Below, piece after piece: positions 3,001 through 64,000 of a stretch of DNA of 64,000 nucleotides; the stretch's first letter is position 1, and the number at the start of each line of letters is the position of its first letter. The notes below the pieces were generated by a model. That model did no database searches and was not told the DNA's origin. It worked only from the letters and a program-made list of their open reading frames with translations. Made by a program: the position numbers and the translations under genes. The stretch comes from Tetradesmus obliquus. Lineage: Eukaryota > Chlorophyta > Chlorophyceae > Sphaeropleales > Scenedesmaceae. The stretch is from NCBI GenBank assembly GCA_030272155.1, contig CP126206.1:2604001-2668000 (forward strand), written 5' to 3'.

Positions 3001-6000
3001 TCTACAAAGACGACCGCGCAACAATAGACATGGAAGATGCCCCGCCGAACGACCCATGCTCGGCGCTTGCGGGTAACCCATACTACACGCAGGTGGTCAC
3101 GCTGCGTGCAATGCGCAACATGTTGGACCCGAACGGCACGGCGCTTGACAGCTGGAAAAACTCCACCGAGTTTGTTGTGGTGCCAGAGCCTGGTGAGCGC
3201 GTGCGCATCCAACATGCATAGTGTGTTATCATTGTTTCCTACGCGTTGTTGTTATCATACAACCTTTTGACAACTTTGTACATGGTGCATATGCTATCCC
3301 CAAGGCGTCCCTTCCGCACATCATCTGCACCATCATGACCCGCTGCTTGAGCTGTCCTAAACTCTCATGACATACTACATGCTGTGTTTTACACTGCCAA
3401 TGCTTGCTTTGTGTGCCGGCACACCTCTGTCGTTCTTCACCACCATGACGTGCTATGTCTGCCTCTCTGCGCTTCATCGCCAGGCCTCGTCCCGCCCTTC
3501 CACTGCCGCACCTATGTCGGCGTCAAGTGTGACGCAACCAACAAGGTGATCGAACTGGACCTGAGCAAGCTTGCTGCCAAGGGGGCGGTGAGGACAGCAA
3601 AGGCGTCTACGGTCAACTTGGTCAAGCTGGCACCTATGCTGCTCAACTTCCCCCAGCTGCAGGTAAGATCAGACAATCTTTGAGCTAGAAGTCCGCTTGC
3701 CTTGTATGGTGTTGCCATGTTTCACCCATGCACCACCACTGAGCATCATTTGCATGCAACGTGCGTGACATTGTGTCTAGCAGGCGATATGCCAAAGATC
3801 TCGTAACAGAGAAGGTATGGGTATAAGCTGGCGAAAGCTGAAGTTTCAGCAAGCTTACATCGGAACCAACACTTGCGGCAAGTTGTCCAGCGTCATTGAT
3901 GTTCATGTGTTGTTTCGCCGCAGCAGATAACAACAGCCATGGATGTTTCCGTGGCATTAGCAACTGCAGCGTCCTCTGCTACATAACAGCAACTCAACTG
4001 TCTTCGAAGCCGTGCATTGCTAACAACACTTCTGCTTACAAAACTGGAATGCTTATGCAGGTGCTGAACATGTCCGGCAATGCAGCCGTATTCCAAGGCA
4101 GCAGCATCCCTGCAGCGCTCAACAAGCTCAAGCAGCTGAAGCGCCTGGACATGTCTGGGTGTGGGCTGACTGGGCCGCTGCCTGGGGCACTGGCAAGCCT
4201 GCAAAACCTCGAGCTGCTTGATCTCAGCATGAATGCAGGTGAGCGTTGTTGGGCAGCCCGTTGACCAGCCATGTTCTTCTGTAAATGTATGTGGTGCCAT
4301 GTTGCCCATCTGCTTATCCTGATGCCTGCTGTATTTGCTGCCTTGTCACCATCCTGAGCTCGCACACATGGTCCATGCTGCTGCTATCGCAGTTTAAGAA
4401 TGGTTTGATCCGGCTTGACCGCCTGCTGCATGGGCTCCCTTGTCACCTGCTGCAGGCCTGAACTCGCGCATTCCCGACATCTGGGCCGGCATGTGTTTGT
4501 GTGCTGCACACTGCTGAACCTGCGGTCAATTGCTGATCTGATGCCTGCTGCATGGGCTCCCTTGTCATCTGCTGCAGGCCTGAGCGGCCGCATTCCCGAC
4601 ATCTGGGCCGGCATGTGTTTCCAGGCAGTACGCTGCTGACCCTGCGACCGTTTGCTCTTCTGATGCCTGCTGCATTTGCTTCCCTGTCATTTGCCGCAGG
4701 CCTAAGCTCCCGCATTCCCGACATTTGGGCCGGCATGTCATCGCTTCGGTACCTAGACCTCTCACAGACCGGCGTCACAGGCCCACCGCCCGAGTCCCTT
4801 GCAGCACTGCAGCAGCTGCAGGTGCTGCAGGCAGCAAACACAAAGCTGACTGGCCAGATTCCTGCAGCGTACGGCATCCTGGGGAGCTTGACCGAGCTGG
4901 ATGTCAGTAATGCAAACCTTGTCGGGTCGATTCCCGGTGCCTGGGCGGACGCGACAGTGCTGCGGCGTATTGCAGTCGGCCAGCTGCAGCACGCGCAGCG
5001 GCAGCTGCAGCAGGCTGCTGCAGGGGATGCGGCATTAATACAGAGTACTGAAGCCGACGAGAAATACGCAGTGGAATCAGCCTTGACCAACATGAAAGTG
5101 GCATTGGCAAAGCTTGAGAGTGCTGGCGGTGCTGTGGAGGTCAGCAGCAGCAGCGGCCTGGGGCTGCTGCAGCTGCAGGTGCTCAGGCTGCAAGGCAACA
5201 AGCTGGCAGGGAGCATCCCGGGTGGCTTTGCGGTGCTGAGTGAGTTGCGGGAAGTGAGCCTAGCCCGTAACCGGCTAGTGGGGCCGCTGCCGGTGCAGTG
5301 GGCTGCGTTGCGCAAGCTGCAGGTGGGTGGTTGGTTGGTGAGGGGTTGTGCTGACAGCAGCAGCAGCAGCAGGAACAGCAGCAGCAACAGCAACAGCAGC
5401 ACACATGATTGTACCAGCCATGGCTGGGTGCATGAGCAGGGTTGCGGCAGCGTCTGCAAACTATAACAGCAATGGGCCTGCTGCAGCACTCTGCTGTGAG
5501 CTGCTGCGCTGCAGCTACAGCCTTGTTAACACCAATGATGCATGCACCCCGCTCTACCATACACTGCCTGGCACTGTGAAGTGCACTTCAATGTCACGCA
5601 TGTGGTCCTGGCATAACCTGCTGCAACGTTTTTGCCCTGACCTTCACTTGTGCCTCTGCTCCCTGCACTGCGCAGACACTGGACCTCAGCCGCCGCTTGT
5701 ACGGTACACTGCTTACCATTTTACTGCTGCACTCTATCTTCATGTTTGTCCACGCACGGCTTGTTTTCTAGTTTTGCTTCCTTCCCTGACCTTTGGGTAC
5801 CCTTGTACCTTGCTTGTGCACCATTTTGCCATCCCTGCGCTACACAGATGCTTGACCTCAGCCGCAACAACCTCACAGGCAGACCTCCGCTGCAGTGGGC
5901 CCGCCTGTCAGTGCTACAAACCTTGGACTTGTCCCGCAACCGCCTGTCCGGACAGCTGCAGAGCACCTGGGCCAGCATGGTCAATGTGCAGCAGCTGTCC

Positions 6001-6303
6001 CTGGGTGACAACCTTCTCACCGGTACAGTTCCTGGTGTGTGGTTCAGCATGAAGTCCGCTGTGAAGATTGACCTCTCGCTGAATCTTCTCACCGGGAAGT
6101 TTCCGGCGACCTGGGGGGCGATGGCTGACAGGGCGACGTACAAGCTGAGGGCTGTTGATGTCAGCGACAATGTCTGCATGACTCAGAGCGTGCTGGCTGG
6201 CAGTGTGAAAGACTCGGGGATTGAGCGAGGTGCTGCTGTGACGGTGGCACTGTCATGTTGCTCCAGCGCTGCCACGGCCAAGGCACCGCTTTGCAAGAAG
6301 TAG
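23..6303 (+). CDS. C1A (papain-type) cysteine protease fused to leucine-rich repeats, 5' end outside window
   Basis: Exons: 23-178, 468-559, 823-3192, 3484-3662, 4061-4238, 4700-5322, 5848-6303. They join in one frame for about 1,350 residues. The first two exons encode the end of a papain-family domain: YGHAVAIVGY carries the catalytic His, and splicing across 178/468 makes ILNSWG, which carries the catalytic Asn. The catalytic Cys must lie upstream of the window. Exon 3 continues into a Cys-containing spacer and then plant-type LRRs (LxxLxLxxNxLTGxLP). The exon 3/4 junction creates an LRRNT-like segment (CRTYVGVKC), after which further LRRs run to the stop. No transmembrane segment is seen near the C-terminus (ends LCKK), so a secreted or vacuolar protein is inferred. 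The protease and LRR calls are secure; whether the full-length protein is an active protease cannot be judged here. Confidence 0.8.
4456..4699 (+). repeat. Two upstream echo copies of exon 6 start of the protease-LRR gene
   Basis: The segment 'acceptor + first ~40 bases of the exon starting at 4700' occurs three times at exact 122-bp spacing (4456, 4578, 4700). The first two copies lose similarity after about 40 bases and run into stops. Only the third continues into the LRR exon. A decayed copy of the exon 7 start is also visible at about 5677, ahead of the real exon at 5848. Confidence 0.8.
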
Positions 6304-6349
6304 CTGTATGTTGTGTGAGGATTCAGTTGCAGTGTAGCAACGACCACAA

Positions 6350-6383
<34 letters not shown>

Positions 6384-6549: not shown

Positions 6550-6586
<37 letters not shown>

Positions 6587-7859: not shown

Positions 7860-9060
7860 ATGATGCGCGAAATATCTTCAAAATGTTTTCTGTTAGTGCT
7901 GCTAGTGGGGCTGCAGCTGTCGATCAAGTGCGGTGAAGCGGGCCCAAACGGCACTGTCTCTCAGGTGGGTGGGTCAGCAGGGCAGGCGAAGGGCGGGTGT
8001 GCACCTGCAACAGTGCATGAAAAGTCAGTCAAACGTTACATCAAATGATCGTATGCATCCCTCAACATGCTGAGCGTCACCAGCAGCAGCCAGCAGCAGC
8101 AGCAGCAGCAGCAACAGCGTAGGACAGCCAGCAGCAGCTCAGACCAGCACTACTCTCAAGATAGACAACAGCCCTCTGTTGCACACGCTACAAGCAGCTG
8201 AAGCAGCAGGCAAGGGGTGACATGTCCAGCTTTCAAGCATGTCTGTTGATGCACCGCAGTCGCATCCTGCATGCATGCCTCGTATCACACACACAAACAG
8301 CAGCAGCTCAACACCAGCAGAGCACAGAGCACAGCTGCTGCTGCTGCTGCTGCTGCAGTGAGCACGCGTACCCGTCACTTAATCTCAGCCTGCTGTTTAG
8401 CACTTCACACTACACCAGCCTGCTGTTTAGCACTTCACACTCCACCAGGCGCAGCTCTACTCTTTTATCTCCTTGCTTTGGCACGCACTTGGCATCGCAG
8501 CTGTACCTAGGCCATGTTGAACGCCAGAAACCCTGGTCAGCTACATTGAAATCACAGCCATTGGTCGACATGTCTTCCTCTCCTGCTTCAACCAATGAGC
8601 CAACCATATGTTGCATGCCATCTACCTCACCCCACTGCTTCTTTCCTCTGCTATGTTATGTATGTTGCTAAAATGCAGTTGGCGTCGCAGCTGTGCCCAG
8701 GGCATGTGCTGCTGATCCCCTGCTAGCTGTGTTCTGCTTCAATCACTGCACCAGCCATACCTTGCATGCTATCTCTCACCACTGCCTCTCTCCTCTCCTC
8801 TGTTATGTGTGTTGCTATAATGCAGTTGGCATCGCAGCTGTACCCAAGTCATGCACTGCTGCAGCTGCAGCCTACCACCACCAGTGCCCTGCAGCGGGCA
8901 GTGCAGAAAGCTCTTGCAGGACACTCACAGCCATCTGTGCTGGTTGTGTTTGAAAATTCAAACGGCAAGGGCGGCAAAGCAGCAGTACTGGCAGTGGATG
9001 CAGTGCTGAAAGTGACAGAGGGACAGAGCCTGGTACTGGCGACGGCACCAGCACTGCAGT

Positions 9061-9094
<34 letters not shown>

Positions 9095-10193: not shown

Positions 10194-12305
10194 GCTGCAG
10201 GTGTTTGTTTCACGCACAAACTGCAGCGGCTGCGCTGCAGGTATCAAGGGCGGCTGCATCTACAGCAACAGAGTGACGCAGCTGCTGGTGACTGACAGCT
10301 CGTTCACATACAACTGGGTGAGGTCTCACAACTAAGATGATTTGTAATATTATATTATATATAATCTTATTATCTATGTTGCTAATATTTATGTAAGACT
10401 GGGTGAGTATTGCTGTGTAGTAGAACTAGACAGCTGCCTCTGCAACATCACATGCACTTGAGGGAAGCTTGAAAGACAATCAGCTGCCGCCCTGTGCAAT
10501 TGTTTGCTGCTACCACCCGTACCAGAGCCAACAGAGCCGCAGCAGGCGGACCGCATTGCCGGCTGTGCTGGCACACCTGCAGGCACTTCATACCAAAACA
10601 CCAGCAGCTGCAGGCACTTCATACCAAAACACCAGCAGCTGCAAACACTTCCTGCCATGACAATCTCTCTTGCATGGCATACGCAAGCTTCTTATTTCGC
10701 ACCCACAACCTGCAACTTTTCATACAACCTGCTTAAACTTATGTTGTATTTGTGCCCGCAGCAAAGTGAGCTTGAGCAGGAGGGCCGCCGGCGGCGGCAT
10801 CACGTGCAGACACTTCACGCCACAACACCAACCTGATACGCCTTTGCTGAACTGTTCTGTTTGCAGCAAAGCGAGCTGGAGCAGGAGGGCCGCATTGGTG
10901 GCGGCTGGCCAGACATACAAAGTGACAGCAGCGCGCTGCCCCTTTGCACAAAACCTTTTTTTTTTTGCAAAACCTGTTGTTTCTGCTCTGTCCTCAGCAA
11001 AATGAGCAATTGGCGGCTCTGCTGGAGCACCTGCAGACACCCCACATACCCACAACAACCCCACATAGACTGCCCCTGCCCTCGCAATGCATCTTGTTCT
11101 CCTTTTTCCTGCAGCAAAGCGAGCTTGAGCAGGAGGGCCGCATTGGTGGCGGCGGCATCGCTGCTGACCAGACATACAAAGTGACAGCAGCGCGCTGCAC
11201 CTTTGCTCACAACCCTTGTTTTTGTTGTGCAAAACCTGTTGTCTCTGCTCTGTCCTCAGCAAAATGAGCAATTGGCGGATCTGCTGGAGCACCTGCAGAC
11301 ACCCCACATACCCACAACAACCCCACATAGACTGCCCCTGCCCTCGCAATGCATCTTGTTCTCCTTTTTCCTGCAGCAAAGCGAGCTTGAGCAGGAGGGC
11401 CGCATTGGTGGCGGCGGCATCGCTGCTGACCAGACATACAAAGTGACAGCAGCGCGCTGCACCTTTGCACACAACACGGCGTATGCATCGCCCAAAGGCC
11501 GTGGCGGGGCGCTGCTGGCGCTGTTCTGTGGCGACGTGGTGCTACTGAACAGCAGCTTCACTAACAACAGCGCGCTGTACGAGGTGCGGGCCTTTCGTTC
11601 TGTTTGGCCATATCTGGTTGTTGAGTTTCGCAGCCGATGCCTGTGTTTGCCTGCAGTTTGTTGCATCTTTGATGTAGTCAATCATCATGTTTGCTGCAAA
11701 GGCAGGGCATGTGTAGGATGGCTGATCTGTAAACATGACCTGGGGATGTGGCGGGGGGCTGCTGGCGCTGTTCTGTGGCGACGTGGTGCTGCTCAACAGC
11801 AGCTTCACCAACAACAGCGCGCTGTACGAGGTGAGTGCGATGATCTGCTGCCTTCCATTGATATGATCGGGTGCGGTCACTGCTGGCAATGGTGCATCAC
11901 CTCTTGCATCAGGCTGCAGCTTCGCTGCAAACTTCTGAGGTCGTAACCTCTGCGCTGCACTGCTGTGTGCTACATGCAGGGTGGTGCTGTCACTGCTGGC
12001 GATGTGGCATCGTTCCTCGCATCAGGCTGCAACCTCCTGCAAAGTGCTGGGGTCTAAATATCTTACACTGCGCTGCTGTGCTGGTTGCAGGGTGGTGCTG
12101 TCACTGCTGGCGATGTGGCCTCGTTCCTCGCATCAGGCTGCAACTTCACTGCCAACGGCAGAGTGCTCACAGAGCTGGAAGATACAGCAGCAGATGATGC
12201 AGACACAGCAGCAGCAGCAGATGATGCAGCTGCAGCAGCAGCAGATGATGCAGCAGCCGCAGGAGATGATGCAGCAGCAGCACCAGCAGATGATGCGGCG
12301 CCGCC

Positions 12306-14794: not shown

Positions 14795-17700
14795 GCAGGC
14801 GAATGAAGGTGGTGGTATGTACGCTGAGTACGGCAGCCAGATCGTCATCCGCAGCTGCAGCTTTGTCGACAACTCAGCCGCCAACTTTGGAGGCGGCGTG
14901 GAGTCTGTTTCACAAAACATGACGCTGACAGACGTGCTGTTTGCAGGCAACAAGGTACGTGGTGATGCAGCTGCGGCGGCAGGCTTGTTTGATCAAAACA
15001 GACATTTAGAATTAGGAACATTCATTCATGAATTGGCCCCAACTTGGTGCTGCATTGGAGGCTGCTGCTGCTGCCTTTGATTGGGGATCCTCCACATGCT
15101 CGAGTATGCATGACGCTTGCATTGATTGTGAATGTTTGAGTGGTTTGAGTGGGTTGACAGCTTTGTACCCAGGCTTGCAGCTTGCAGGCGAGCCGAGGCA
15201 TGTTTTGGCACACACCTTGCCACAAACTGCTCAAGCCCTTCCACGATCCGACCTCAACCTAACCCAGTTACATTGCTGCTGCACTGCTGCTGCTGCGGCA
15301 GGCGTACTATGGTGGCGGCATGCACTTGGCATCCATCTCCGCCGCCCAGCTGTCAAATGTAACAGTGTTAAGTAACACAGCATCTGGAGCCGGCGGCGGT
15401 TTTGCCATCCAGAGGTCCCAGAACATCTTGCTAGAGGGCAGTAGTGTCACTGGGAACTCTGCACCTCTGGGTGGTGGGCTGGCCTCTGACAGCAGCATGG
15501 TTGAACTTCGTGGTGTGAACATGACTGGGAACTCTGCCCAGGTGGCCGGTGACACTGCTGATCAGGTGAGCTGTTGGATGGTGGGCTGGCCTCTTCAGCA
15601 GCGAGGTTGAACTTCGTGGTGTGAACATGACTGGGAACTCTGCACAGGTGGCCGGTGACACCTCTGATCAGGTGAGATGTGGGGCTGGGTGGCGGCGCGA
15701 TCAAATTACTGCGGCAACATGCACCACTTGATAAGTGAGTGGCGTAGTGCAAGTAGCACTTGCTGAATCTGCAGATAACAGTGCAATGCTGCATCTGACT
15801 ACTGCCGCGGATTAGGCAAGGAGCACATGATGGTGACAGCTTTAATCCGAGCAGCAAAGAGTGTTGATCGTGTTGCTCAACTTCTGCTTCGCTGCAGCCG
15901 TCATGACGCAGGCTTCATTTTTCCTGTATTATACTGTCTGAGCACTGCTGCGCATCCTCGGCGGTACATTTTCTGACACAAAGCCTGCCTTGCTGATGCC
16001 TGCAGGACGAAGGCGCTGCAGATGGCAGCAGCAGCAGCAGCGGCGGCGGCATGCCACAGGTCATCAAGTTCTCATCCCTGGTGCATGTGCAAGGAACAGC
16101 TGGCGCTGCTCTGCTGCAGCGCTCTTTCCTGAATGTCAGCGACACCAACATGACCAGCAATAGCGCCGGCTGGGCAGCAGGCGGCCTGCTGCTCCAGCAG
16201 CAGTGGCAGCTGTCAATGGCAAATTCAAACCTGGAAAATAACAGTGTGGCTTGGGGACCTGGCGGCGGCCTCGTCGTGCGGGGCCCGACTGGATCTGGTA
16301 GCATAACAGATTCAAACTTTATTTCGAATCGTGCGACAGTCGGAAGTGGCGGTGCAGTAGCCATTGACTCTGGGCTGGGTCCTTTGGAGCTGCAGTGCCA
16401 GGGATGCCAGTTTGCAGGAAACACAGCTGGCCAGGTGAGCCATATGGCAATGTGGTGTTTGAAAACCTGCTGAAATGCTTCTTGCAACGCATCTGTTGTA
16501 TCTACTGGCGTGCCATTTTGCAATCAGGTTTTTCTTTTCAAAGCATTACCTTTTAACAACAATGCCACAGTTGGAAGTGGCGGTGCTGTGGCCATTGACT
16601 TGGGGCTGGGCCCTTTGGAGCTGCAGTGCCAGGGATGCCAGTTTGCAGGAAACACAGCTGGCCAGGTGAGCCTTTTGAAACTGTTTCGTTATTTGTAACA
16701 TCTTCTGTTGTGTTACTTCATGTGTGGGCCCTTTGGATCTGCAGTGCCAGGGATGCCAGTTTGCAGGAAACACGGCGGGCCAGGTGAGATTCATGCCAAT
16801 GGCCTTCAGCGCAGGAAATGTGTGTCCTGCAAGTCTGCATACCTGTTGAGCGTCAACTGCATCGACTGCAGAGCGATGGAGAGTGACTGAGTGATGATTT
16901 GTTTTGCAATCCTCTATATATTGCGGGCACCTGCTTGCAGGACTGCGGAGGTGTCAAACGCTCCGGGCAGAGACACAATTTACATATGCATCAACTGCAC
17001 CTCCAGCAGCTGACTTGGTTGTGCCAAGTTGCCTGGCATGCGTTGGGTCCGACAAACTTATTGCAATTGACGAGTCCTGTATGTTGCGGGTTCTGCTTGC
17101 AGGATAGTGGAGGTGTAAAGGGCAGCGGGCAGACAACATTCGCCTGCACCAACTGCAGCTCCAGCAGCAACACAGCCAGCCATGATGGCGGCTGGCTCGC
17201 CTGCAGCAGCTGCAGCAGCACAACACTAGCCTCAACAACCTGCAATCCTGTGTAAACGTTGCTGCTTGCAGGATGGCGGAGGGGCATTGCATTTCACCAC
17301 CACTCCCTCCTGTGCTACACCCTGTTTGTCCTGAAATCCTTGTCATCTGCAACTCGGTGCATTGCTTGCAGGACGGCGGAGGCGTGAAAGGCAGCGGACA
17401 GACAACATTCTCCTGCACCAACTGCAGCTCCAGCAGCAACACAGCCAGCCATGATGGCGGCTGGCTCGCCTGCAGCAGCTGCAGCAGCACAACACTAGCC
17501 TCAACAACCTGCAATCCTGTGTAAACGTTGCTGCTTGCAGGATGGCGGAGGGGCATTGCATTTCACCACCACTCCCTCCTGTGCTACACCCTGTTTGTCC
17601 TGAAATCCTTGTCATCTGCAACTCGGTGCATTGCTTGCAGGACGGCGGAGGCGTGAAAGGCAGCGGACAGACAACATTCTCCTGCACCAACTGCAGCTCC

Positions 17701-20399
17701 AGCAGCAACACAGCCAGCCATGATGGCGGCTGGCTCGCCTGCAGCAGCTGCAGCAGCACAACACTAGCCTCAACAACCTGCAATCCTGTGTAAACGTTGC
17801 TGCTTGCAGGATGGCGGAGGGGCATTGCATTTCACCACCACTCCCTCCTGTGCTACACCCTGTTTGTCCTGAAATCCTTGTCATCTGCAACTCGGTGCAT
17901 TGCTTGCAGGACGGCGGAGGCGTGAAAGGCAGCGGACAGACAACATTCTCCTGCACCAACTGCAGCTCCAGCAGCAACACAGCCAGCCATGATGGCGGCT
18001 GGCTGGCCTGCAGCAGCTGCAGCAGCACAACACTAGCCTCTACCACCTGCAGCAACAACAGCGCAGCAGCAGCCGGCGGCTCTGTTTCCTGTGACGGCTG
18101 TGGAGAATTTAACGACTCCTCAAGCACTTACAACAGCAATGCAGCAGCAGCAGGCGGCGCAGTGGCCCTCACAGGTACCGGCAGCGTTGCAATGCGCGGC
18201 GCGAGGTATGAGGATAACACTGCTGCGCCGAATGCAGCAGCAGCAGCGGCAGCGCTGACTGCAGCAGGGGGTGTGCTGCTGCGGCTGCAGCTGGTGAACA
18301 CGCTGCCGCTGCCGTGGCAGCGGTTATACGACTCAGGGTCTGCTGCATTGGGCAGCATCAGTTGCAGCAGCGGCGGCTCGGGCGGTGGGCTGTGCATAGC
18401 TTCTGCAGGTGCGCAGTCACGTTTTAGTCATTTTGCCAAGTGCTTTTGGCCGCTCAGCAAGAAGGTGCGATGCACTGCATGTTATGCGTGTTTGAAAGCA
18501 CAAAAATGCGTTTGAGGGTTACATTGTACGCTTCAGGGTCTGCTGCGCTCGGCAGCAGCGGCTGCAGCAGCGGCGGCTCGGGCGACGGGCTGTGCATTGC
18601 GTCTGCAGGTGCGCTGATACAAGTCTCAGGCCCGGACCTGCCATGTGTGTGTTTTGTTTTCTAGATCAGCCGGGGTAGGTCGCACCATGTGTTACCCAGC
18701 AGTAACAAAGTTTGTAGTTAATCATCTGGGCTGCCTCTGACACGTGCAACTTATGACTTATAATTTGATACAATTGCAGGCGCGGCGAGCATCATAGATG
18801 TCACCATGCCCAACAACCGCGCCAGCAACGGCGCCGCAGTCTTCGTATCTACATGCTGCCTCTGACACGTGTGATCTGCCAATGTGCATGCAGGCGCGGC
18901 GAGTATCGTGGATGTCACCATGCGCAACAACAGCGCCAGCATTGGCGGCGCAGTGTTTGCGTCTGCCGGCTGCGAACCTGTGCGTTACGACAACGCAAGC
19001 TATCGCCCGGGCAGCAGCGCCTGTCTGCTTCAAATGGCGGGGCTTGATGCGAGTGGCAACAGTGCGCAGGAAGCAGGGGGAGCTCTGTACAGCAGCACCC
19101 CTCAGTCGCTGGTGCTGGCAGGTGCGTATTGCATGTAGTTTTCCCTGTTTTGTTCAGTGTTCTGTCTGAATAGCGGGCCCTGCTTGCTGCAGGCTGTTTT
19201 TCCTTTTGGTTGGCCAGACAGCGGTGCCTGCCTGCTGCAGATGGTGGGGCTGGATGCGAGTGGCAACAGTGCGCAGGAAGCAGGCGGAGCTCTGTACAGC
19301 AGCACCCCGCAGTCCCTGGTGCTGGCAGGTGCGTGTTGTATGTCTGATGTTTTGGATTTCAGCAGATTGGCCGCACAGCAGGGCCTGTCTGCTGCAGATG
19401 GCGGGGGTTGATGCAAGTGGCAACAGTGCGCAGGAGGCGGGAGGGGCGCTGTACAGCAGCACCCGGCAGTCACTGGTGCTGGCAGGTGCGCATTTGAAGC
19501 CCCATGTATCTTGCTACTTGTTTTGTTCTGAGAAGCTGTAATATCACATCGGGAGCTGCACAGCAGCACGCAACAATCCTTTGAAGGTTGAAGGTATGTG
19601 TCGATGCGCATTTTTGGGTGCTGCAAGCACAGCCCGCTGACTCCACACATGCACCTGCATTGACTCCCCTCCCCGCCCTCGCAGACAGCACAGCAGACCT
19701 GGCCAACACCGCCACCTTCAGCGCCCTGCGGCAGTACGGAAACAGCTGCTGCATACATTACTCAATGTTATTTAATATATCCTGTCTGCTGCCTTGCAGG
19801 ACAGGATCCCACGTCTAAGTTGTCGTCCAAGCATGTTTCTCTGCTGAACCTCTGTGCCCCCCCCAAGCATAGCGCTCAGCTCACTTCCTGATTCGTACAT
19901 TTCTCTCCCGCCCCACAGACAGCTCAGCAGACGTGGCTAACACAGCCACCTTCAGCGGCCTGCGGCAGTATGAAACAGGCTGCCGCAGGATTGGGGTTCC
20001 TGTCACCGCCTTGCAACATGTGTTGGTTTAATGCAGGACCCTTCGTGCTCAAGTGGATACATCACACCGCAATCAGTTGAAGCTCAATGATTGCTAACTC
20101 CGTTATTGTGCCTGCATCAAACAATTGCTGCAATGCAGACAGCACAGCAGACCTGGCTAACACAGCCACCTTCAGCGCCCTGCGGCAGTACGAGACTCGC
20201 CGCTCCCTGCAGCAGCTGGCAGCAGACAACTCAGTGGCAGAGGGTGGTTATGGGCCTGGTGCTGCCTCATACCCGGTGCAGTTGTCCCTGCAGGCGTCTG
20301 CGGCTGATGAGGCAGCTGTGATGGCCCGCAGCAGCAGCAGTGGCAGTGGACCTGCTGCTGGCAGCAGCAGCGAGAGCGGATCCGTTGCCGGAGCCGCAG

Positions 20400-34224: not shown

Positions 34225-35011
34225 TGCTGCCGGCTGCCGCTGCGCTGGTCAGGTCCCTTCCAGGCCCAAATGGCAGTGCCATTCCTGGTGCTGCCAAACC
34301 TGATGCCGCAGCTGCGTTTGAATGATGTCACTTCAGAAGTAACACTGTCACGTGACGTCATCTACCTGTCAGATGACGCCGGCGGCAGCAGGGCGGTGCC
34401 TGAGGCACGGCTAACAGGGTGGCAGAGTGACATTGGCGCTACTTTCAATTATTCGGGCAAGGAGATGCAGCCGCAAGCAGGAGGCATGTCACAGACCTGT
34501 GCACAGGTGAGGGGCATATCTTTTCATCATGCTTGTTATTTGATTTGTGATAGCAATTAGCTGCCGCTTTCAAATATTCGGGCAAGGAGATGCAGCCGCA
34601 AGCCGGAGGCATGTCACAGACGTGTGCACAGGTGAGGGGCATATCTGTTCACCATGCTTGTTATTCGATTTGTGATGGCAATTCAGGTGCCACTTTCAAG
34701 TATTCAGGCAAGGAGATGCAGCCGCAAGCGGGAGGCATCTCGCCAACCTGTCCACAGGTGAGACACACTCTTTGTGCTGCTGCAGGTGCAAGCAGCTCTG
34801 CAAGGCGGGAAGGGTGGGGCGGAGGCGGACTGGCGAGGCGTTCAATCCCCTGCTCATCAGCCCTACGCTACGTGTGCTGAAACTTTTGCTGAAATCTGTG
34901 CTGAAACCTGTGCTGCTGCAGGTGCGTGAAGTTTTGCGGGAAGTGACTGGTGAGGCATTCGACTCGCTGCTCATCAATTACTACCCGGACGGCAAAGCAG
35001 GCATGAGGTGA

Positions 35012-51940: not shown

Positions 51941-52664
51941 ACGTACCCAAACCTCACCTCACAGACACATATTCAAGCTGCTTTGCACACAGCTGCTGGC
52001 GTTACGCAAACGACTCAACTCTCAGCCAGCAGGTATGCTCCACATGCCAGACCGTCTGTACGGCGTACAGCGCTCAACTTGCCGCCTGCACATCAACACA
52101 CATGTGCACATACATGAGCTGCTCCTAGCAGTGCCTGCTACTGCCAAGCGCACACTAGGCTGAGGCCACTGCAGCGCAAAGGCAGCTGATTTGCTCAGTT
52201 CAAATTAACACAATGACAAAACACCGAGAGATTCACAATGACAGGATTACTCAAGCACGACACACTGAACATATCGTTCTGTTATGAGTAACTTGAAGGT
52301 TGGCACTGTTGAGTTGACTGCAAACAAGCATATACACAGTAGGTGACAAAAAGTGACATACCGGTAGCCAGCGTCTGCGCAACAGCATGGCGACCAGCAG
52401 CACACAGTTTTGCAGCAAACATGCAATGCTTGGCAAGCTGTCATGTCCTGTCCCTCACACCAACCTTCAAATAGACTCAGCCAAAAAATGATGATGTTGG
52501 TCATCTTGCTGAACCGCAAGAACAAAACAGACTGCAGCGCTTTCATGTTTACATACTCCCATGACAGCTATTGCCCAGGACAGCCTGAACCACATACAGA
52601 GAGCACACACCACACAGTGCCTATTGTTGACCAAAACCAGACAGAACTGGCAGCTTCCGTCACC

Positions 52665-53475
52665 CATGGACATTGCCGCTGCCCTGGAATGGCTTCATGC
52701 CTGCTGCCCTTTCCGCAATGCTCAGCACCGCTCCAACGACTGCCATCAGCGCCACTAGAGAGTAACTGGACAGGACAGCACAGCATGCAAAGGAGTGATT
52801 GGAATCAACAGCCAAGCCATGCACGGCAGATACCGCAAGGAGGCATACTGCAACATCAGTAGCGAGCCAACTCATTGTGTGGCAGAGGTGTTTGATCACC
52901 CCTGAACGTTGCCGCTGCCCTGGAATGGCTACATGCCTGCTGCCCCCTCCGCAATGCTCAGCCCCGCCCCCACCAATGCCATCAGCGCCACTGCTCCCGC
53001 TACTGACGTCAGCAGCACAGGCAAATAACAGAGCCTGACAGCAAAGCCACACATGGGAATCCCTGCACCTCACAGACCAGCCATACAGGAGAGACGAGCA
53101 GACACCAAGAGCAGCCTACGTGACGTATCTGCTCACCCGTGCATGCTGCCGCTGCCCTGGAAAGGCTTCATGCCTGCTGCCCCCTCCGCAATGCTCAGCA
53201 CTGCTCCAACCACCGCCATCATTGCCACTGCCCCCATCAGGCCATTGGTGGCAGTGAGAACAGGAACAGAAGGCAGCGACGCCAGGTGGCACAAACAAGC
53301 AGATGAGTGCCAAACCTTGAAGGCGAATAACACAAGTCATCACCCGTGAACGTTGCCGCTGCCTTGGAAAGGCCTCATGCCTGCTGCCCCTTCTGCAATG
53401 CTCAGCACCGCTCCAACCACTGCCATCAGCGCCACTGCCCCCATCAGGCCATCAGCGCCACAGGAACGTCACGCG
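52665..53475 (-). repeat. Four copies of the permease terminal exon end, with stop
   Basis: The last ~100 coding bases of the permease (encoding LMAVVGAVLSIAEGAAGMKP and tail) recur beyond the real stop at about 53340-53455, 53135-53245, 52905-53000 and 52665-52755. Intervening sequence is partly duplicated as well. Confidence 0.85.
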
Positions 53476-53712: not shown

Positions 53713-54993
53713 TCAGCCGTGGACATTGCCGCTGCCTTGGAAAGGCTTCATGCCTGCTGCCCCTTCTGCAATGCTCAGTACCGCCCCCACCACTGCCATC
53801 AGCGCCACTGCCCCCATCAGGCCATTGGTGGCATGCATCAGCCACAGCACAGCGCCCCGAGGTTGGTGCACCGCGCGGTACATGAGCATGGGGAACAGCA
53901 CTGCAGCAGCAGCAGCAACATCAGCAGCGAATAATATTGTCAGCGGCATTTGTAGCACTGTATCAGCCACAGCACAGCACCCCTGGGCGGGTGCACCGCG
54001 CGGTACATGAGCATGGGAAACAGCACTGCAGCAGCAGCAGCAGCAGCAGTGCAGCAGCAACAGATGGTGTCAGCGACATTTGCAGCATTGCATCAGCCAC
54101 AGCACAGGGGGCCTGGGCTGGTGCAGCAGCAACAGCAGCAGCAGCAGCAGCAGCATGTAGTACCGCTCATGTACTATTGTAGGTGTTGTGTCAGCCACAA
54201 TGCAGCTGAACAAAGGCAGCGCCACTGCCAGCCTGCTAAACAACCACATATCAACCGCACCCCAACAATCATGTTGTCCATAGGTCATATCGCACCTGCT
54301 GTTGGCCAGTAGCTGATGGCTCCAATCAAGTCAACGATAGAGCAGAAAAACGGTAGCACCATTTCCAGCACGCCATATGGCGGCCACCAACACAAGCCAC
54401 GCCGTATGAGCCGCATTCTGCAGTTGCCAAGCTCAGTAAGATGTCAAACCTCACCAACAACAGACAAACCTTGTACACTCTCAGTGGCTCACCTGCTGTT
54501 GGCCAGTAGCTGATGGCTCCGATCAAGCCAACAATGGAGCTGAAAAATGGGAGCGCCACCGCCAGCACGCCGATCACAGCCACGTACAGGCAGCGGTAGA
54601 CAGCCCGCACCAGCCACTCCCTCACGTTGGCAAGGCTGGGGCAGCAGCGCAGCAGGATGTCTTCGATGGAGGCAAACAGTGGCTGTGCCAACACCTGTGT
54701 GAAGTGTGAAGGGCGGGGGAGCATGGGTTCGTGGGTTGTGTCAGGCAGCAGAAGGCAGTCTGGTGGTTGGGCTGGGGCAGCAAGCGCATCAAGGCGTTCA
54801 CAATGGCGGCGAACAGCGGTTCTGCAGGCACGCGTCAGGTGGAATGTTGAGCCGACATGATGAAGCCCGTGAGCTGGGATGATCAGCAGGGATGAACGCA
54901 GGTATACATAGGTGTCCAGAAGCAAGGAGGTAGTGGTGGCACAAGCATGAGCATTCCTTGTATTCCAGTTGATGATGATGCCGTGAGCACCGC

Positions 54994-55057
<64 letters not shown>

Positions 55058-55521
55058 GGCCCACCTGGTATGCTGACACCATGTGGATCAGCACCATGAG
55101 GTTGCCTGCAGCCCAGCAGCAGCAGCAGCAGCAGCAGCGGCAGCAGCGGCGGCAGGGCACACATCAGCACTGACTCGAAGCAACATCTGTGGCAAGCAAA
55201 CATGTGAGCACCTGTTGGTGTGTGCCAGCAACAGCATTCCGTGGGAAAACCAGCAGCAGCAGCAGCCATGTGACATCAAGCACGCCGTGGCAAATGCCTC
55301 AACAGAAGACCCGTGGGCCACACACCATGTGATGCGTCACACACCATGTGATGCGTCAGCTGGAGCCCTGCAGTCATATCTACTTCAGTCGACAGAGCGG
55401 TTGTTTCACAGCTGTTCAGGTGCGACATGGCCTGCCTGCACTCGCTGCAGCTGCCCCTCACCCAGCAGTGTGACCCAGCCTGGGGATCCTCTGAAGCCCA
55501 GCAGGATGTTGCCTGGCAGCA

Positions 55522-55580
<59 letters not shown>

Positions 55581-56929
55581 GGCGCTTTGTCATCAGCAAC
55601 CTAGGCCGCACCGAACAACAGCAGCGGCATTGCTAAGCATGCGGCTGCACTCGCAGCACCGCAGCAGCCTTGCAGGTGTTCCGCCCTATGCAGCACGAAG
55701 CTAGGCAGCGGCCTGTTTGTCCCAGAAACCTGAAAATTAACGGCATAACAAGTTGAGGTCGGCGGCTGGCATCAGGCAGCTCACCAGGCACGCCGTCTCC
55801 CAGGGCCATGTAGCCCAACACACTGACGGCAGGGTTGAGGGCAAGAAAGTAAACACCAACCCTTTATGCAACGGGTGGTGTACCAGGCACGTTATCACTC
55901 AGGGCCATGCAGCCCAGCACACACTGACAGCGGATTGTAGTGTTGAGGACAAATTTGCTGACATCTCGAACCCTCCTTATCTTAATCCTGCATCATGCCG
56001 CATGTGTCTCACCAGGCACGCCGTCTCCCAGGGCCATGTAGCCCAACACACTAACAGCAGAGTACACCACAAATGTGACGCTGATGCCTGCAGCAGCAGC
56101 AGCAGTAGCAGTAGCAGCAGCAGCAGCAGCAGCAGGATGCGGCAACTGTTGCAGCCAACGCAGGTTCTGTACTCACCAACCGGAAGGGCTAGCATGAAGG
56201 AGCGCATGCAAACAGCTGGCAGTGGATGGCAGCAGCTATATGGTTGCACCGTGCATGGCAGCCAATGCAGCATAGTGTCAACAACTCACCCTGTCGCATT
56301 GAAATTGCTATAACACAATGTTTATGACTAACGCCTCACCCAGGTTGACGGCCTTTTTCATGCTGACTGAGGCCTTGGGAGGCTCCCTCAAGGTGTCCTC
56401 AATCTCAATCAGCACGATGGCGCAGCTGCAACAGAATGGCAATGAAAAGAGCATTGGAACATCAGTTGGAGCAGCATCAATACACAAAAGCAACAGACAC
56501 AGTGCACATTCACATGCTGCAGTTGGTGGAATCCGGTTACTGCTGGCTGTCAACATTGTGCATGGCAGGAGCAGCAGCAGCAGCATTGCATAAACGCTTG
56601 GAGCAGCTACATACTTCCTAACTTCCTTAGTCACACCTGTATGAGGCGCCCAGTGCCCCCAGTGCGTTGAAGATGCCAAAGGCCTTCTCACTGGGGCTGC
56701 CAGGGTGGCCTGCCACGCTGCCTTGGTGCTGGGACGCCTGGCTGGCCCCAAGGGCGATAGCCACAGCAGAGTACCTGCAGCAGCAGCAGTAGCGGCAGCA
56801 GCAGCGGCAGCAGCAGCAGCAGCAACAGCGGCGGCAGCGACAGCATGTAGCGTCTTAACTTCTGTCCCACTGCACTGCCCTGGTGCTGAGACGCCTGGGA
56901 GGCACCAAGGGCAATTGCCCCAGCAGAAT

Positions 56930-56969
<40 letters not shown>

Positions 56970-59647
56970 TTTAACGTTGTAGTTGTGCCCGAGACACTGC
57001 CCTGGTGTTGAAACGCCTGGCTGGCACCAAGGGCAATGGCCACAGCAGAATACCTGCAGCAGCAGCAGCAGCAGCAGCTCGCTTGAATGACATGTCCATG
57101 ATCATACAGATTTCACCCAAGCGGCTTCAGGTCGGGTAGTTGATGGCCAGCATGTGCACATCCCCAAAGCTGTGTGCCCTGAGCCGGCCCAAGCCACTCC
57201 CCACTGCTCACTGAGCCCACTCGCCCAGATGACATGGCTGCTGATGTACCCCCCAAGCCCTCCAAAACCTGAGCCTGTGAACCATAATCCCTCACCCAAA
57301 TGACATGGCAGTGACTATGAGTGACGTCCACCAAGCCGCTTCAAGGTTGGGCAGCTGGCTGGGCAGCATCTGCACCCCCCCCCCAAACCCCACAGCTGCA
57401 AAGCATAAATCGTTCCATAGTAAAACCCTGCAAAAGCCAGGTCCTCACCCAAATGACATGGCTGCGCCAATCAGGGATGTCCACCACGCTGCTTCCAGAT
57501 TTGGTAGTTGGCTGGTCAGCATCTGCATGGCCCCAAAGATAACTGCCATGACCCAGTAGGTGTCCATGCAGCTGTCTTGAGGCTTGCCCATCATCTGCAG
57601 GCAGCAACAAGCACGCATACAGAGTTTGAGCCAGTGAGTAGCATTAGCACACCAGCGGTGATGGCAGCCACCAGCTGCGCTGGCCATTTCCTGGCAAGCT
57701 GCTGCAGCAGCAGCAGCAGCAGCACAGCAGCGGCAGCAGCAACGCGCAAACAACAGCAGCAGGAGCGTGTGCCAGAGAACTCAAATCAGGTTTGCTGCAG
57801 CAGAAATGAGTGCCATGGCCCAGAAGACATTCAGGAAGCTGCCAGCAGCCCTGGCCCACGTCCTCAAGGCGTAGGCCCAGGTTGAAGCAGGCCTGGTTGC
57901 AACGATGAGTCAGCAGCTGCAGGAGCCATGCACCTCACACGCCTGTCCCTAGGTGTAGCACAGTGGCTGAACCTGCTTAAAACATGATAAAAAATTTCAA
58001 CTCTGAAGCCCTTGAAACCCTGGAACCCTTGCTTGATCTGCAGGTGGCAGGCCTGACGCACCTGGCAGGCCTGGCCAGCGATGTATCCCAGCGACTCTGC
58101 CCCTGCAATGTGGTAGCCCAGCGTCACCAGTAGCATGGTGGGACCCTATATCCCCAAACCCTTTCTACACCTTGAACCCAACCCCTGACCCCTGCTACAC
58201 ATGCCGCGCACCTGGCAGGCCTGGCCAGCGATGTATGCGAGTGACTCAGTGCCCGCGATGTGGTAGCCCAGCTTCACCGGCAGCATGGTGGGACCCTGCA
58301 CCCTGACATGCTAAGCCTTCTAAGACGTGGTAGCTGATTGTCACCAGCAGCATGGTAAGGTATGCCGGTGACATCTGTAACACAGAGCTCCGGCACCCTT
58401 AAACCTCACTCTAGCTTCAGATTTGAATGCAGCTCACCTGGCAGGCCTGGCCAGCGATGTATGCCAGCGACTCTGCCCCCGCAATGTGGTAGCCTAGTGT
58501 CACCAGCAGCATGGTGGCATGCTGCAGCACACTCAGCACCACCGCCGCCCTGGGGCCTGCACAGAAAAATAAAGCAGTAGGCATGTTAGTTGGGGAGAAG
58601 ACACGGAAAAAGAGCAAGCAAGTGCCACCAGCAGCATGGTGGCATGCTGCAGCACACTCAGCACCACGGCAGCTCTGGGGCCTGCATACAGAAAACTTCC
58701 GCAGTAGGCGCGGTGTGTGTGATGTGTGAGGACAGCGGGAAGGGTTGTAGCTGCTTTGCAACAGCACCACCGTAGCGCGCGGGCCTGCATCCAGCCAGCA
58801 GCAGGCATGTGAATTGGGGAGAAGAAGGGAAAAGCAAGCAAGCAAGTGCCAGCAGCAGCATGGTGGCGTGCTGCAGCACAGACAGCACCACTGCAGCCCT
58901 GGGACCTGCACAGAATGGCAAAGCAGTAGGCACGGTGTGTGTGGTGTGTCAGGAAAGTGGGAAGGCTTGTAGCTGCCTTGCAACATCACTACCGCAGCGC
59001 GCGGGCATGCAGAAGAGCAGCAGGCATGTTAGTTGGGGAGAAGAAGGGGATGAAGAGCAAGCAAGTGCCACCAGCAGCATGGTGGCATGCTGCAGCACAC
59101 TCAGCACCACGGCAGCTCTGGGGCCTGCACATAAAAATCATCAAGTAGGCACGGTGTGTGTGTTTTAGGAGAAAAGTGGGAGGGGTTGTAGCTGCCTTGC
59201 AACAGCACTCCCGCAGCGCGCGGGCCTGCATACAGCCAGGAGCAGGCACGTGAATTTGGGAAGATAATAGGTTGTGTGAGCAAGCGTCGACAGCAGCACA
59301 ACTGCACTATCAACTCCATGTAGCCGCACACAAGGTGCAGAGCAGACCAGCAAGCAGGGTGCGAGAACAGTACTCAAGGCCCGAATATCATAGCTGCAAT
59401 AAATCAGTGGCCCCCTCACCTAAGATAGATGCCACTGCGTCCTTGTAGCGGCTGTGGCGCCGCCCCTTCACTGCATACACGTCCGCCAGCATCCACATGC
59501 ACCAGAGCGTTATAACATAAAATAACAGCAGCGCGCCGCAGCCGCCGACCCAGCCCAGCCAGGCCATGCTGTGAGGCAGGCCCAGCACGCCTGCTCCGAT
59601 GATGGTGGTGATGATGTGGCCGGTGGCGATCGGCCAGCTGGCTGCGC

Positions 59648-59690
<43 letters not shown>

Positions 59691-59793
59691 GTAGCGGGAG
59701 CAGCAGCAGCGTCAGTGTGTGGCAGGCCCAGCACGCCTGCTCCGATGATGGTGGTGATGATGTGGCCGGTGGCGATCGGCCAGCTGGCTGCGC

Positions 59794-59870
<77 letters not shown>

Positions 59871-59963
59871 CGTCAGATGTGTCATGCTGTGAGGCAGGCC
59901 CAGCACGCCTGCTCCAGTAATGGTGGTAATGATGTGGCCGGTGGCAACTGGCCAGCTGGCTGT

Positions 59964-60002
<39 letters not shown>

Positions 60003-60747
60003 TCAGCGTGTGGCAGGCCCAGCACGCCTGCTCCGATGATGGTGGTGATGATGTGGCCGGTGGCGACCGGCCAGCTGGCTGTAGCAGCAGCAGCAGCAGC
60101 GGCAGCAGCAACAGCGGCTCCAGCAGCGATGGTTGCAGCTGTCACCAGGTGCATTAAGGCGCAGCTCCCGCTGCACAGCTGGCACACCATGGTGCCAGGA
60201 TCCAGTCTCATGTCAGCCGCAACACCCTGCAGCTGCAAGCTGTGCACAGCTGTGACAAGGCCTGTGGGTTTGTGTGGGACTGTGGGCTGCTGCTGCCTCA
60301 GGAGCTGCTGGTCGAAAGCACGGGCTGCTGTGGGCACTCAAGCACATGCAGGCGGCACTCACTGTGTCCCGTGTCTTGAGACGCCAGAGTGGGTCCTTGG
60401 GACAGGTCAGCACACAGCAGAACACAAACACACATGCAGGCAGCCACGCATTGTGGCTGTTGCGGTGTGATCTAAGAGGAAATCCTTGGGACAGATCCAG
60501 CACACACCAGCACACACCAGCACACACGCACATGCAGGCAGCTACTCACTGTGTCCATTGCGGTGTGATCCAAGAGGAATTCCTTGGGACAGATCCAGCA
60601 CACACCAGCACATAACAGCACACGCACATGCAGGCCGTCACTCACTGTGTCCCGTGTGGTGTGAGCCCAGCATAGAACCTTGAGACAGGTCAGCGCGCAG
60701 CAGCAGTGAGGAGCGCCGCCGCAGCCCCGACACGTCACCATGATGGC

Positions 60748-60778
<31 letters not shown>

Positions 60779-60841
60779 CAACTCCACGTCGTGTGTGCCA
60801 TGTGTGTGCGCGCCTCTGCTGCTGCTGCCGCGTGGTGCCAT
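53713..60841 (-). CDS. Plant-type amino acid permease (AAAP family)
   Basis: Exons in coding order, minus strand: 60841-60646, 59641-59420, 58556-58438, 57594-57449, 56774-56637, 56425-56340, 56087-56013, 55512-55462, 55105-55065, 54694-54493, 53900-53713; 487 residues, phase-consistent. The family imports amino acids with protons across the plasma membrane or tonoplast. Visible signatures: GHIITTIIGAGVLGLPHSMAW (TM1), GYHIAGAESLAYI, IFGAMQMLTSQLPNLEAAWW, AAMSFGYSAVAIALG, EIEDTLREPP, VLGYMALGDGVPGNILLGF, LMVLIHMVSAYQV and AQPLFASIEDIL. Two more TM helices and an LFPMLMYRA segment follow. About 10-11 TM helices are expected, the normal AAP plan and length. The N-terminus (HDVEL then an Ala run) is the least certain part. 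The 17-residue exon 8 and 14-residue exon 9 rest on splice sites and family fit. Confidence 0.85.
53975..54360 (-). repeat. Echo copies of permease exon 11 start and exon 10 end
   Basis: About 53988-54032 copies the exon 11 acceptor and start (encoding LFPMLMYRAVH; real start 53900), with a decayed second copy near 54110-54175. About 54296-54360 copies the exon 10 end (encoding IVGLIGAISYWPTAG; real end 54493). Confidence 0.8.
54783..54832 (-). repeat. Echo copy of permease exon 10 start
   Basis: Diverged copy of the exon 10 start (encoding PLFA.I...L.R.LP), upstream in gene orientation of the real start at 54694. Confidence 0.7.
54991..55057 (-). repeat. Pure (CTG)n tract in permease intron 9
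   Basis: About 22 triplets just after the donor of the exon ending at 55065. Confidence 0.9.
55788..55930 (-). repeat. Two echo copies of permease exon 7 end
   Basis: Copies of the exon 7 end encoding VLGYMALGDGVPG (real end 56013) at about 55885-55928 and 55790-55830, the second nearly exact. Confidence 0.8.
56840..57440 (-). repeat. Echo copies of permease exon 5 start and exon 4 end
   Basis: About 57000-57056 and 56880-56935 copy the exon 5 start (encoding YSAVAIALGASQA; real start 56774). About 57295-57365 and 57108-57165 are diverged copies of the exon 4 end (real end 57449). Both types share this intron, in the order expected from the polarity rule. Confidence 0.75.
58060..58290 (-). 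repeat. Two echo copies of permease exon 3 end
   Basis: About 58211-58290 and 58061-58140 copy the exon 3 end (encoding GYHIAGAESLAYIAGQACQ; real end 58438). Confidence 0.85.
58618..59240 (-). repeat. Three echo copies of permease exon 3 start
   Basis: About 58629-58685, 58855-58909 and 59077-59129 copy the exon 3 start (encoding GPRAAVVLSVLQHATMLL; real start 58556). Over 200 bases of intron are copied with them, so units of about 220 bp can be aligned. Confidence 0.85.
59642..60110 (-). repeat. Three echo copies of permease exon 2 start with (GCA)n tracts
   Basis: The exon 2 start encoding SWP.ATGHIITTIIGAGVLGLP (real start 59641) recurs with acceptors near 59790, 59957 and 60078. Each copy is followed upstream by a GCA/CTG tract; the longest (about 59796-59868) has roughly 25 triplets. 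Confidence 0.9.
60359..60610 (-). repeat. Three echo copies of permease exon 1 end
   Basis: The exon 1 end encoding DLSQGSMLGSHHTGH (real end 60646) recurs at about 60548-60600, 60453-60510 and 60359-60412. The first keeps a gtgag donor. Confidence 0.8.
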
Positions 60842-61389: not shown

Positions 61390-61422
<33 letters not shown>

Positions 61423-62399: not shown

Positions 62400-63289
62400 C
62401 AGACAACCCAGACGCTGCGCCGCACCAGCAGCAGCACCATCCGCCAGACGGCCGAGTTGCTGCTGCTACTGCTGCTGCAGCTGCCCTAGCTGCTGCCGAT
62501 CAGCCTCCCCAGCCGCTGCGCCTGCTCGCCCAGCCCAACATGCACCAGCAGCAGCAATGCACGCTGCTGGGGCCGACTGCTGTTGCTGCTGCTGCTGTTG
62601 CTGCTGCTGCTGTTGCTGCTGACCTAGCTGCTGCCGATCAACCTTCCTAACCGCTGCGCCTGCTCGCCCAGCCCTACATGCACCAGCAGCAGCGCCACAC
62701 GCCAGTGGGCCCTGCTGCTGCTGCTGCTGCATGCTGGCCTAGCTGCTGCCAGCCTAGCTGCTGCTGATCAGCCTCCCCAGCCGCTGCGCCTGCTCCGCTA
62801 GCCCAACATGCACCAGGAGCAGCGCTCTGCTGCTGCTGCTGCTGACCTAGCTGCTGCCAATCAGCCTCCCCAGCCGCTGCGCCTGCTCGCCCAGCCCAAT
62901 ATGAACCAGCAGCTGCTGCTGTTGCTGGCCTAGCTGCTGCTGATGAGCCTCCCCAGCCGCTGCGCCTGCTCGCCCAGCCCCACATGCACCAGCAGCAGCG
63001 CCAAACGCCACACCAGCTGCTGCTGCCACTGCTGCTGCTGCTGCTGCCAGCCTAGCTGCTGCCAATGAGCCTCCCCAGCCGCTGCGCCTGCTCGCCCAGC
63101 CCAACATGCACCAGCCACAGCGCCCTGCTGCTGCCCGCTGCTGCTGCTGCCAGCCTAACTGCTGCCGCTGCCGCCAGCCTAGCTGCTGCCAATCAACCTT
63201 CCTAACCGCTGCGCCTGCTCCCCCAGCCCCACATGCACCAGCAGCAGCGCCACCCGCCACACCAGCTGCTGCTGCTGCGGCATGCTGCC
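62400..63289 (-). repeat. About eight copies of the ILP1-like terminal exon end
   Basis: The segment encoding VALLLVHVGLAEQAQRLGRL plus stop is repeated beyond the true stop. The core CGCTGCGCC lies near 62412, 62513, 62653, 62781, 62873, 62956, 63078 and 63208, with the real copy near 63319. Units are 80-140 bp and vary mainly by CTG tract length. Confidence 0.9.
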
Positions 63290-63890
63290 CTAGCTGCTGC
63301 CAATCAGCCTGCCAAGCCGCTGCGCCTGCTCCGCCAGCCCAACATGCACCAGCAGCAGCGCCACACGCCTTGCCAGCGGGCCCAACTGCTGCTGCTGCTG
63401 CTGCTGCTCTATGCTGCGTGCAAGGCTCGCCAGCACATCAAGCAGCGGCTGAGCCTCCCGGGGCGCTGAACCCTCCCTAAACCACGACCCCGGTAAACCC
63501 TGAACCACAGCCTCTGCCCGCGCTACTGCCAGGGGCAGATCTGACAAGCTGCCACGTAAGCAGGGTACAAGCTGCGCCACTAAACCCTGCAGCGTTAGTT
63601 TGACCATCAGCTGCTGACTCAGCAGCTCCTTGAACCCTAGTAAACCCTGCAGCAGCGCGGCGGCTCGCCTAAACCGCAGCTGCAGCACTGCCTGTGCGAT
63701 TGGGGACGCTGCTGCTGCTGCCGAGGGCCAGGGTGGCACTGCTGCTGCTGCTGCTGCTGCTTCTAGGGAGCCTGTTGTCAGTGCCAGCAGCTGAGCCATA
63801 TCTTCCTTGTCTGCTGGAACATACACAAACAGGTCTGACACCAGGGCAGCTACTGCGCGGCTCTGAGGGAGTTGGCAGGGGTCCCAGCAC
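63290..63890 (-). CDS. Probable ILP1/GCFC (PAXBP1-like) splicing factor, last exon only
   Basis: Terminal exon of a minus-strand gene whose body lies beyond the right edge; about 200 residues. It enters in phase 2 through a TGCAG acceptor and starts CWDPCQLPQSRAVAALVS. Points of resemblance to the plant ILP1/GCFC C-terminus: SDLFVYVPADKEDM, the LRFRRAAALLQGLLGFKELL block (family: FWR...LL.N.L.W...F), AEAVVQGLPGSWF, and a final LARRVALLLVHVGLAEQAQR (plant ILP1 ends with a similar LARRLKKML...-type helix). The family acts with the NTR spliceosome-disassembly complex. A CAG tract encodes a short poly-Gln, and Ala runs replace loops. The assignment rests on remembered family patterns and would need a profile search. 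A decayed echo of the exon start lies at about 63930-63962. Confidence 0.55.
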
Positions 63891-64000
63891 CTGCATGCAA
63901 AAGAAACATCAGGGATGAGAAGAGTATGAACTGTAACTGCTACTGGGCGCCTCTGAGGCAACCTGACCTGAATATTCTAAGCCCTCACCCCCGCCCCCAC

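Follow-up and report, generated by a model that had tools for sequence, protein, structure and literature searches.

What kind of process fills the introns of a green alga with truncated copies of the neighboring exons? We addressed this question in a 64,000-nucleotide window of Tetradesmus obliquus (the whole stretch of DNA analyzed, bases 2604001-2668000 of contig 16), where exon starts and exon ends recur in the adjoining introns as partial copies, here termed echoes. The account we favor, at a probability of roughly 60%, is that copies of exon ends are seeded rarely, then multiply and exchange with the real exon by homology, so that selection on the exon indirectly purges the whole pool of copies.

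We mapped exons by spliced alignment of proteins to three window genes: a beta-helix/TRP-like gene, a TOC34-type GTPase, and an AAP-type amino-acid permease. Over 488 residues, the spliced permease product shows 2 substitutions and 1 gap relative to its mapping protein, P0001, and over 424 residues the TOC34 product shows 3 substitutions relative to P0154. A drafted permease sequence was 98% identical to a T. obliquus protein. Identical codons numbered 475 of 488 for the permease and 413 of 424 for TOC34, with codons split by introns left out of the count. The source contig of P0154 is 2106 bases long compared with 4958 bases for the TOC34 gene here, and P0154 therefore probably derives from spliced RNA. 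The beta-helix gene was mapped with a distant paralog, P0034 (904 of 2109 unsplit codons identical). Exon copies were sought within 1.5 kb of the exons of these genes. We judged beta-helix exons 9, 18, 19, and 39 to be mis-modelled by the paralog and left their five matches out of later counts, and we retained a "whole" copy of exon 17 as a 3' echo. The resulting set, tallied from the copy search, comprises 60 echoes from 31 exon ends and covers part of the eight genes and 40 exon ends named in an initial annotation of this DNA. A corrected segment-based gene finder served only for drafting proteins and for suggesting exons outside the three anchored genes. A wider repeat survey took in 264 kb, made up of the window cut into pieces and 20 other loci.

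The copies are strictly polarized. The search in the three genes returned 65 copies: 31 of 3' ends, 26 of 5' ends, 6 "whole," and 2 "internal." Every 3'-end copy lies downstream of its exon (31 of 31) and every 5'-end copy upstream (26 of 26), so that all 57 edge copies follow the order that the initial annotation had described. The same bias held in profile searches of the whole genome (Aa_trans, Cpn60_TCP1, and Kinesin), in which 29 of 29 echo-like matches had the same sense. This tally used all 96 PF00118 rows, all 90 PF01490 rows, and 12 rows of a single kinesin gene picked by eye out of 155 matches because its echoes were visible; 2 of the 29 matches are the window's own permease, 6 come from that kinesin gene, and a few 3' downstream matches could be consecutive exons with overlapping profile ranges. 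Matches sharing the exon start within 5 residues or the exon end within 2 residues numbered 21, and all 21 agreed. The "whole" copies stem from beta-helix exons 9, 17, 18, 19, and 39. None of the 6 carries both AG and GT; complete copies with both splice sites, as in mutually exclusive exons, were thus absent among the 65.

Selection had been invoked to explain this polarity. Echo units contain the exon end together with its splice site, and the identical order results whenever a tandem duplication has its two breakpoints in an exon and in an intron, respectively: when an intron end and exon start are duplicated, the second copy is whole, and when an exon end and intron start are duplicated, the first copy is whole. 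The order of the copies is forced by this geometry. Polarity is therefore uninformative on selection, and we rejected a selection-driven origin for it as unnecessary.

The repeats are local and tandem. Comparison of the window with itself gave 135 same-strand repeat pairs, every one less than 1.1 kb apart, and no pair further apart. Over the 264 kb there were 268 pairs within 2 kb, covering 16% of bases, and 12 pairs at 2 kb or more; inverted pairs were absent, and Markov-shuffled sequence gave no same-strand pairs. We counted 44 clusters in the window and 65 further ones in 14 of the 20 other 10-kb loci (satellites at L008 and L020 included; one of the 14 holds satellites only). These results support a local, tandem, and widespread process that leaves one complete exon in place. 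Contrary to the initial annotation, the pattern is not present in every gene. Local clusters were absent from 6 of the 20 random loci, and two beta-helix paralogs that form an inverted pair about 70 kb apart (C1:7453001-7463000 and C1:7389001-7399000; 97.7% identical to each other over 2583 bases) showed no tandem duplication in 10 kb each.

The repeats are also tied to exon ends. Among 25 young full-unit matches, 11 come from L008 and L020, which are satellites without predicted exons, and the other 14, in 12 arrays, coincide with exon ends (for array L017 this was recognized only by reading its sequence). In the three genes, 96 of 103 repeat pairs touch an exon or an echo. One 11-bp satellite accounts for 5 of the 7 flagged as intron-only; of the other two, one is located outside the gene and one probably belongs to an exon-edge family. 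Simulated random placement gave 57% intron-only pairs among splice-compatible outcomes, or 33% for a compact gene.

Plain duplication predicts that the introns flanking a real exon end and its echo should be similar. No flank similarity was detected by score in 36 of the 60 echoes. Setting aside 6 of these whose CTG-rich flanks could not be judged and 1 with a spacer of 9 nt, 29 remain, and their exon parts are 78-98% identical. Age could explain the missing similarity in part, but not in young arrays. We examined 19 arrays, and in 9 young ones the inner introns match while the outer flank is unrelated (POMP16, POMP7, the 34436 array, L018, L019, L021, L009, L012, and L017); there were 2 exceptions, and the others were weak or uninformative. 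In the first six, inner flanks reached 72-100 of 100 against each other, and the outermost flank fell under the 99% control threshold, barely so in L018 (20 versus 21). The flanks of L009 and L012 behaved in the same way, with no threshold computed, and L017 was judged by eye. L021 is 100% identical over 196 aligned bases, so decay cannot account for its unrelated outer flank. For TOC34 exon 6 and the 3' side of beta-helix exon 28, two flanks match mutually and none matches the outermost. Four further arrays had no flank matches above threshold, and a kinesin array, L027, whose spacers consist of CTG repeats, was left out of these tests for that reason. In genome-wide searches, three spacer segments matched solely within their own array, with no foreign origin seen.

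The clearest trace of exchange is in the POMP16 array (17094-18051) of the beta-helix gene. A total of 11 sites, of which 9 are third codon positions, distinguish its outermost echo from the real exon. At the first 8 sites (the first 40 nt) the two middle copies are of the real type, and at the last 3 (positions 96-135) they are of the outermost-echo type; the 127-nt intron spacers are identical three times. This is the pattern that one unequal exchange inside an exon copy, followed by further unit duplication, would leave. We examined 12 arrays for the hybrid members expected of a tandem array undergoing unequal exchange and found such members, clearly only in POMP16. Two others switch in the sense expected of 3' arrays, namely L019 and the 34436 array, in which the middle copy begins as echo type and continues as real type; POMP7, L018, and TOC34 exon 6 were uninformative. 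Mosaic site patterns were frequent, with 26 of 41 informative site pairs incompatible. The initial annotation had placed one breakpoint of each duplication in the exon and one in the intron. That description suits one likely seed, at exon 15302-15565, with a 107-nt unit, and fails for most young arrays tested, which appear to be bounded by the exon copies themselves, as judged from unrelated outer flanks and the one clean case with hybrids.

Differences between echoes and real exons are concentrated at third codon positions. Frame-intact echoes differ from the real exon at 48, 44, and 217 sites in codon positions 1, 2, and 3, and frameshifted echoes at 34, 20, and 51; the third-position shares (217 of 309 and 51 of 105) differ with a Fisher P of 9e-5. 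The simple decay of echoes proposed earlier is thus not supported, although a faster third-position rate could explain part of the bias. We then sorted codon states, dropping echoes with more than 3 gaps and keeping 56 of 60. Changes private to the real exon fell at positions 1, 2, and 3 in 1, 2, and 19 cases (19 of 22 third), changes common to at least two copies in 2, 1, and 16 (16 of 19), and three-state sites in 0, 1, and 13 (13 of 14), compared with 27, 23, and 56 for changes private to one echo (56 of 106). Constraint is apparent on old branches and much weaker on young echo branches, in keeping with a pool purged by way of the real exon.

A number of observations weigh against exchange and purging. 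Array L009 switches the opposite way, and no clean switch in the predicted order was seen in L012, L017, the 38130 array, the 4421 array, or AAP exon 3. Two families supply 25 of the 26 incompatible site pairs. Outermost flanks are related in AAP exon 3 and in the 4421 array, and on the 3' side of beta-helix exon 25 (23493) flanks match weakly, barely exceeding the threshold, with the outermost copy involved in one of these matches. Seeding itself is hardly observed, and exons outside the three anchored genes are predictions. The weakest point is the codon signal: if third positions change about twice as fast as the others, a neutral history would fit the pooled third-position share. The alignments of frameshifted echoes also contain gaps and may be wrong in places.

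In one explanation, which we consider unlikely, short tandem duplications arose independently many times, always with one breakpoint in an exon and the other in the flanking intron, and the echoes then decayed neutrally. It accounts for polarity and locality, has a candidate at 15302-15671 and the two arrays with related outermost flanks on its side, and resembles a duplication documented in potato (PMC4974935). It also predicts related outer flanks in young arrays, which nine lack, and random placement would leave a far larger intron-only share than the 7 of 103 pairs flagged. The synonymous-only differences might instead stem from alleles or lineages of deep divergence that exchanged sequence, and not from purging within the array, which we regard as improbable. 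In favor of this, P0034 and P0036, beta-helix proteins of T. obliquus taken from separate annotations, are 92.9% identical over 1995 aligned residues, but they may be paralogs and not alleles. The permease and TOC34 products differ so little from proteins of another strain or source that they give no sign of deep divergence, and divergent alleles alone do not explain why exon copies that are 98% identical, one TOC34 exon 7 echo among them, can have unrelated flanks.

Still less probable is a direct function of the echoes, as alternative exon ends or coding parts themselves under selection. Third-position bias speaks for such a function, as does the retention of AG in 25 of 26 5' echoes and of GT in 23 of 27 3' echoes (last AAP exon excluded). 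Yet 12 of the 60 echoes are frameshifted and 1 has a stop, the tips are less constrained than the real exon, and the annotated proteins of two genes, P0001 and P0154, align to exons joined without echoes. The inner echo boundaries carry no consistent splice site, and we rejected inclusion of echoes through splicing inside the exon on that ground. An assembly artefact is barely credible, since most copies differ in sequence, their flanks differ too, and the same pattern occurs on several contigs.

Under seeding followed by exchange, a rare local event would copy an exon end with its splice site into the adjoining intron. The seed is most likely a short tandem duplication across a splice junction, and the single clear candidate (15302-15671) has a unit of 107 nt, consisting of 98 nt of exon and 9 nt of intron, with about 3 nt of overlap; its echo differs at codon positions 1, 2, and 3 in 2, 3, and 2 cases, without third-position bias. 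The 40-140-nt exon copies would then act as homology for unequal exchange or slippage, a role shown in one array by its hybrids and supported elsewhere by flank patterns. Each exchange would gain or lose one unit of intron plus exon end, always leaving one complete exon with its splice site. The real exon would take part, and copies recombining into its position must still encode protein, so that, judging from the codon-position patterns, protein-changing mutations would be purged from the pool and the introns between copies would drift freely. The annotated proteins suggest that the spliceosome skips echoes, since no echo acceptor comes after the real acceptor and no echo donor before the real donor.

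Minisatellites and other concerted tandem arrays expand by unequal exchange and contain mosaic copies. The T. obliquus arrays seem to behave likewise, except that selection acts on one of their members, a coding exon end, and that they usually lack a complete outermost unit. Introner elements place nearly identical sequences, as new introns, into many genes without relation to one another, causing intron growth on a genome scale. Growth on that scale is a shared feature; the difference drawn earlier stands, as no sequence was copied between window genes and no whole introns were inserted. A report on potato RdRp describes a tandem genomic duplication across an intron-exon boundary (PMC4974935). 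Its unit, like ours, comprises an intron end, acceptor, and next exon start, with splice signals inherited, but it produced a new intron and extra exonic sequence in mRNA. In T. obliquus, echoes are missing from the annotated proteins, are found at the ends of many exons in many genes, and go on multiplying. In Daphnia neointrons, whose internal direct repeats stem from staggered breaks (PMC4202315), local duplication during break repair likewise lengthens introns and makes them repetitive; the exon-shared repeats there are 4-12 bp, compared with copies of 40-140 nt with splice sites, in arrays, here. We found no description of exon-end echoes in T. obliquus or related algae in titles and abstract openings of the open-access papers searched, nor in excerpts of PMC4974935, PMC4202315, PMC12571836, and PMC5966456.

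A broader proposition, to which we give slightly less than an even chance, is that substrates for recombination arise and persist in flanking introns through purifying selection on the exons. Echoes would form a semi-protected pool exchanging with the real exon, introns would grow by units of intron plus exon end, and noncoding DNA would show its neighbor's codon signature. Conserved exons would then be a motor of intron growth, tying intron length to recombination and exon conservation and offering a testable reason for long introns in some lineages. Mean intron length is 462 bp in T. obliquus and 230-302 bp in four other green algae (PMC5966456, excerpt). The many decoy splice sites would make gene annotation error-prone and provide a natural experiment on the choice of exons over decoys. 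The two array-free paralogs offer a built-in contrast in the same genome.

Table 1. Exons, echoes, and genes located in the window (window positions)
Feature	Position	Strand	Remarks
Real start of beta-helix exon	17910..18051	+	Acceptor before 17910; P0034 spliced alignment
Outermost 5' echo of the 17910 exon	17103..17244	+	Outer flank unrelated beyond 9 nt
Two hybrid 5' echoes of the 17910 exon	17372..17782	+	17372-17513, 17641-17782
Real beta-helix exon	11377..11583	+	5' echoes 10867-10954, 11115-11213; 3' echo 11748-11830
Exon 15302-15565 with 3' echo 15575-15671	15302..15671	+	Likely primary duplication, frameshifted
Real exon	23333..23493	+	P0034 map; 5' echoes 22675-22762, 22923-23019, 23098-23200
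3' echoes of the 23333..23493 exon	23637-23714, 23817-23871, 23965-24074	+	
Real exon	25331..25530	+	P0034 map; 5' echoes 24885-24925, 24970-25034, 25088-25152, 25200-25263
3' echoes of the 25331..25530 exon	25707-25781, 25873-25921, 26099-26171	+	
3' array of predicted exon (end 34506)	34436..34757	+	Echoes end at 34631 and about 34757
TOC34-type GTPase, 9 exons	40947..45904	+	P0154 spliced alignment; Pfam AIG1
TOC34 exon 6 3' echoes	43799-43850, 43920-43975, 44031-44087	+	
TOC34 exon 7 3' echoes	44481-44546, 44612-44665, 44748-44816	+	
AAP-type amino-acid permease, 11 exons	53716..60841	-	P0001 spliced alignment; Pfam Aa_trans; echoes at 9 exon ends
Four downstream echoes of last AAP exon	52664..53452	-	53344-53452, 53147-53253, 52900-52998, 52664-52756
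Three 5' echoes of AAP exon 3 (58438-58556)	58621..59124	-	One inner junction common to all

In the echoes of the last AAP exon, similarity drops at the stop codon; it continues weakly in 52900-52998 and is borderline in 53147-53253. The flank of the real 3' end at 25530 matches the non-adjacent echo ending at 25921 and not the echo between, as if the flanks had been reshuffled. In the kinesin array L027 (C2:7430665-7431657, minus strand), an exon start is repeated six times upstream; the spacers consist almost entirely of CTG repeats, which leaves one reading frame open from end to end of the array. The acceptors of AAP exons 2, 5, and 11 and of TOC34 exon 9 are among those ending CTG runs, and such runs at acceptors may favor slippage near exon starts.

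Other tandem repeats were also noted. An 11-bp minisatellite at 20987-21442 has about 37 copies in 20988-21398; no other array flagged in the three genes is clearly intron-only. Satellite-like sequence with spacings of about 191, 275, and 351 bp and no predicted exons occupies L008:1-1135 and L020:1-3959 and 4086-6039. Short-period tandem repeats of 15-31 bp occur at 37406-37510, 51614-51670, 51834-51941, 55319-55358, 8386-8448, and 10577-10651, and these are distinct from the exon-edge arrays, whose periods are longer.

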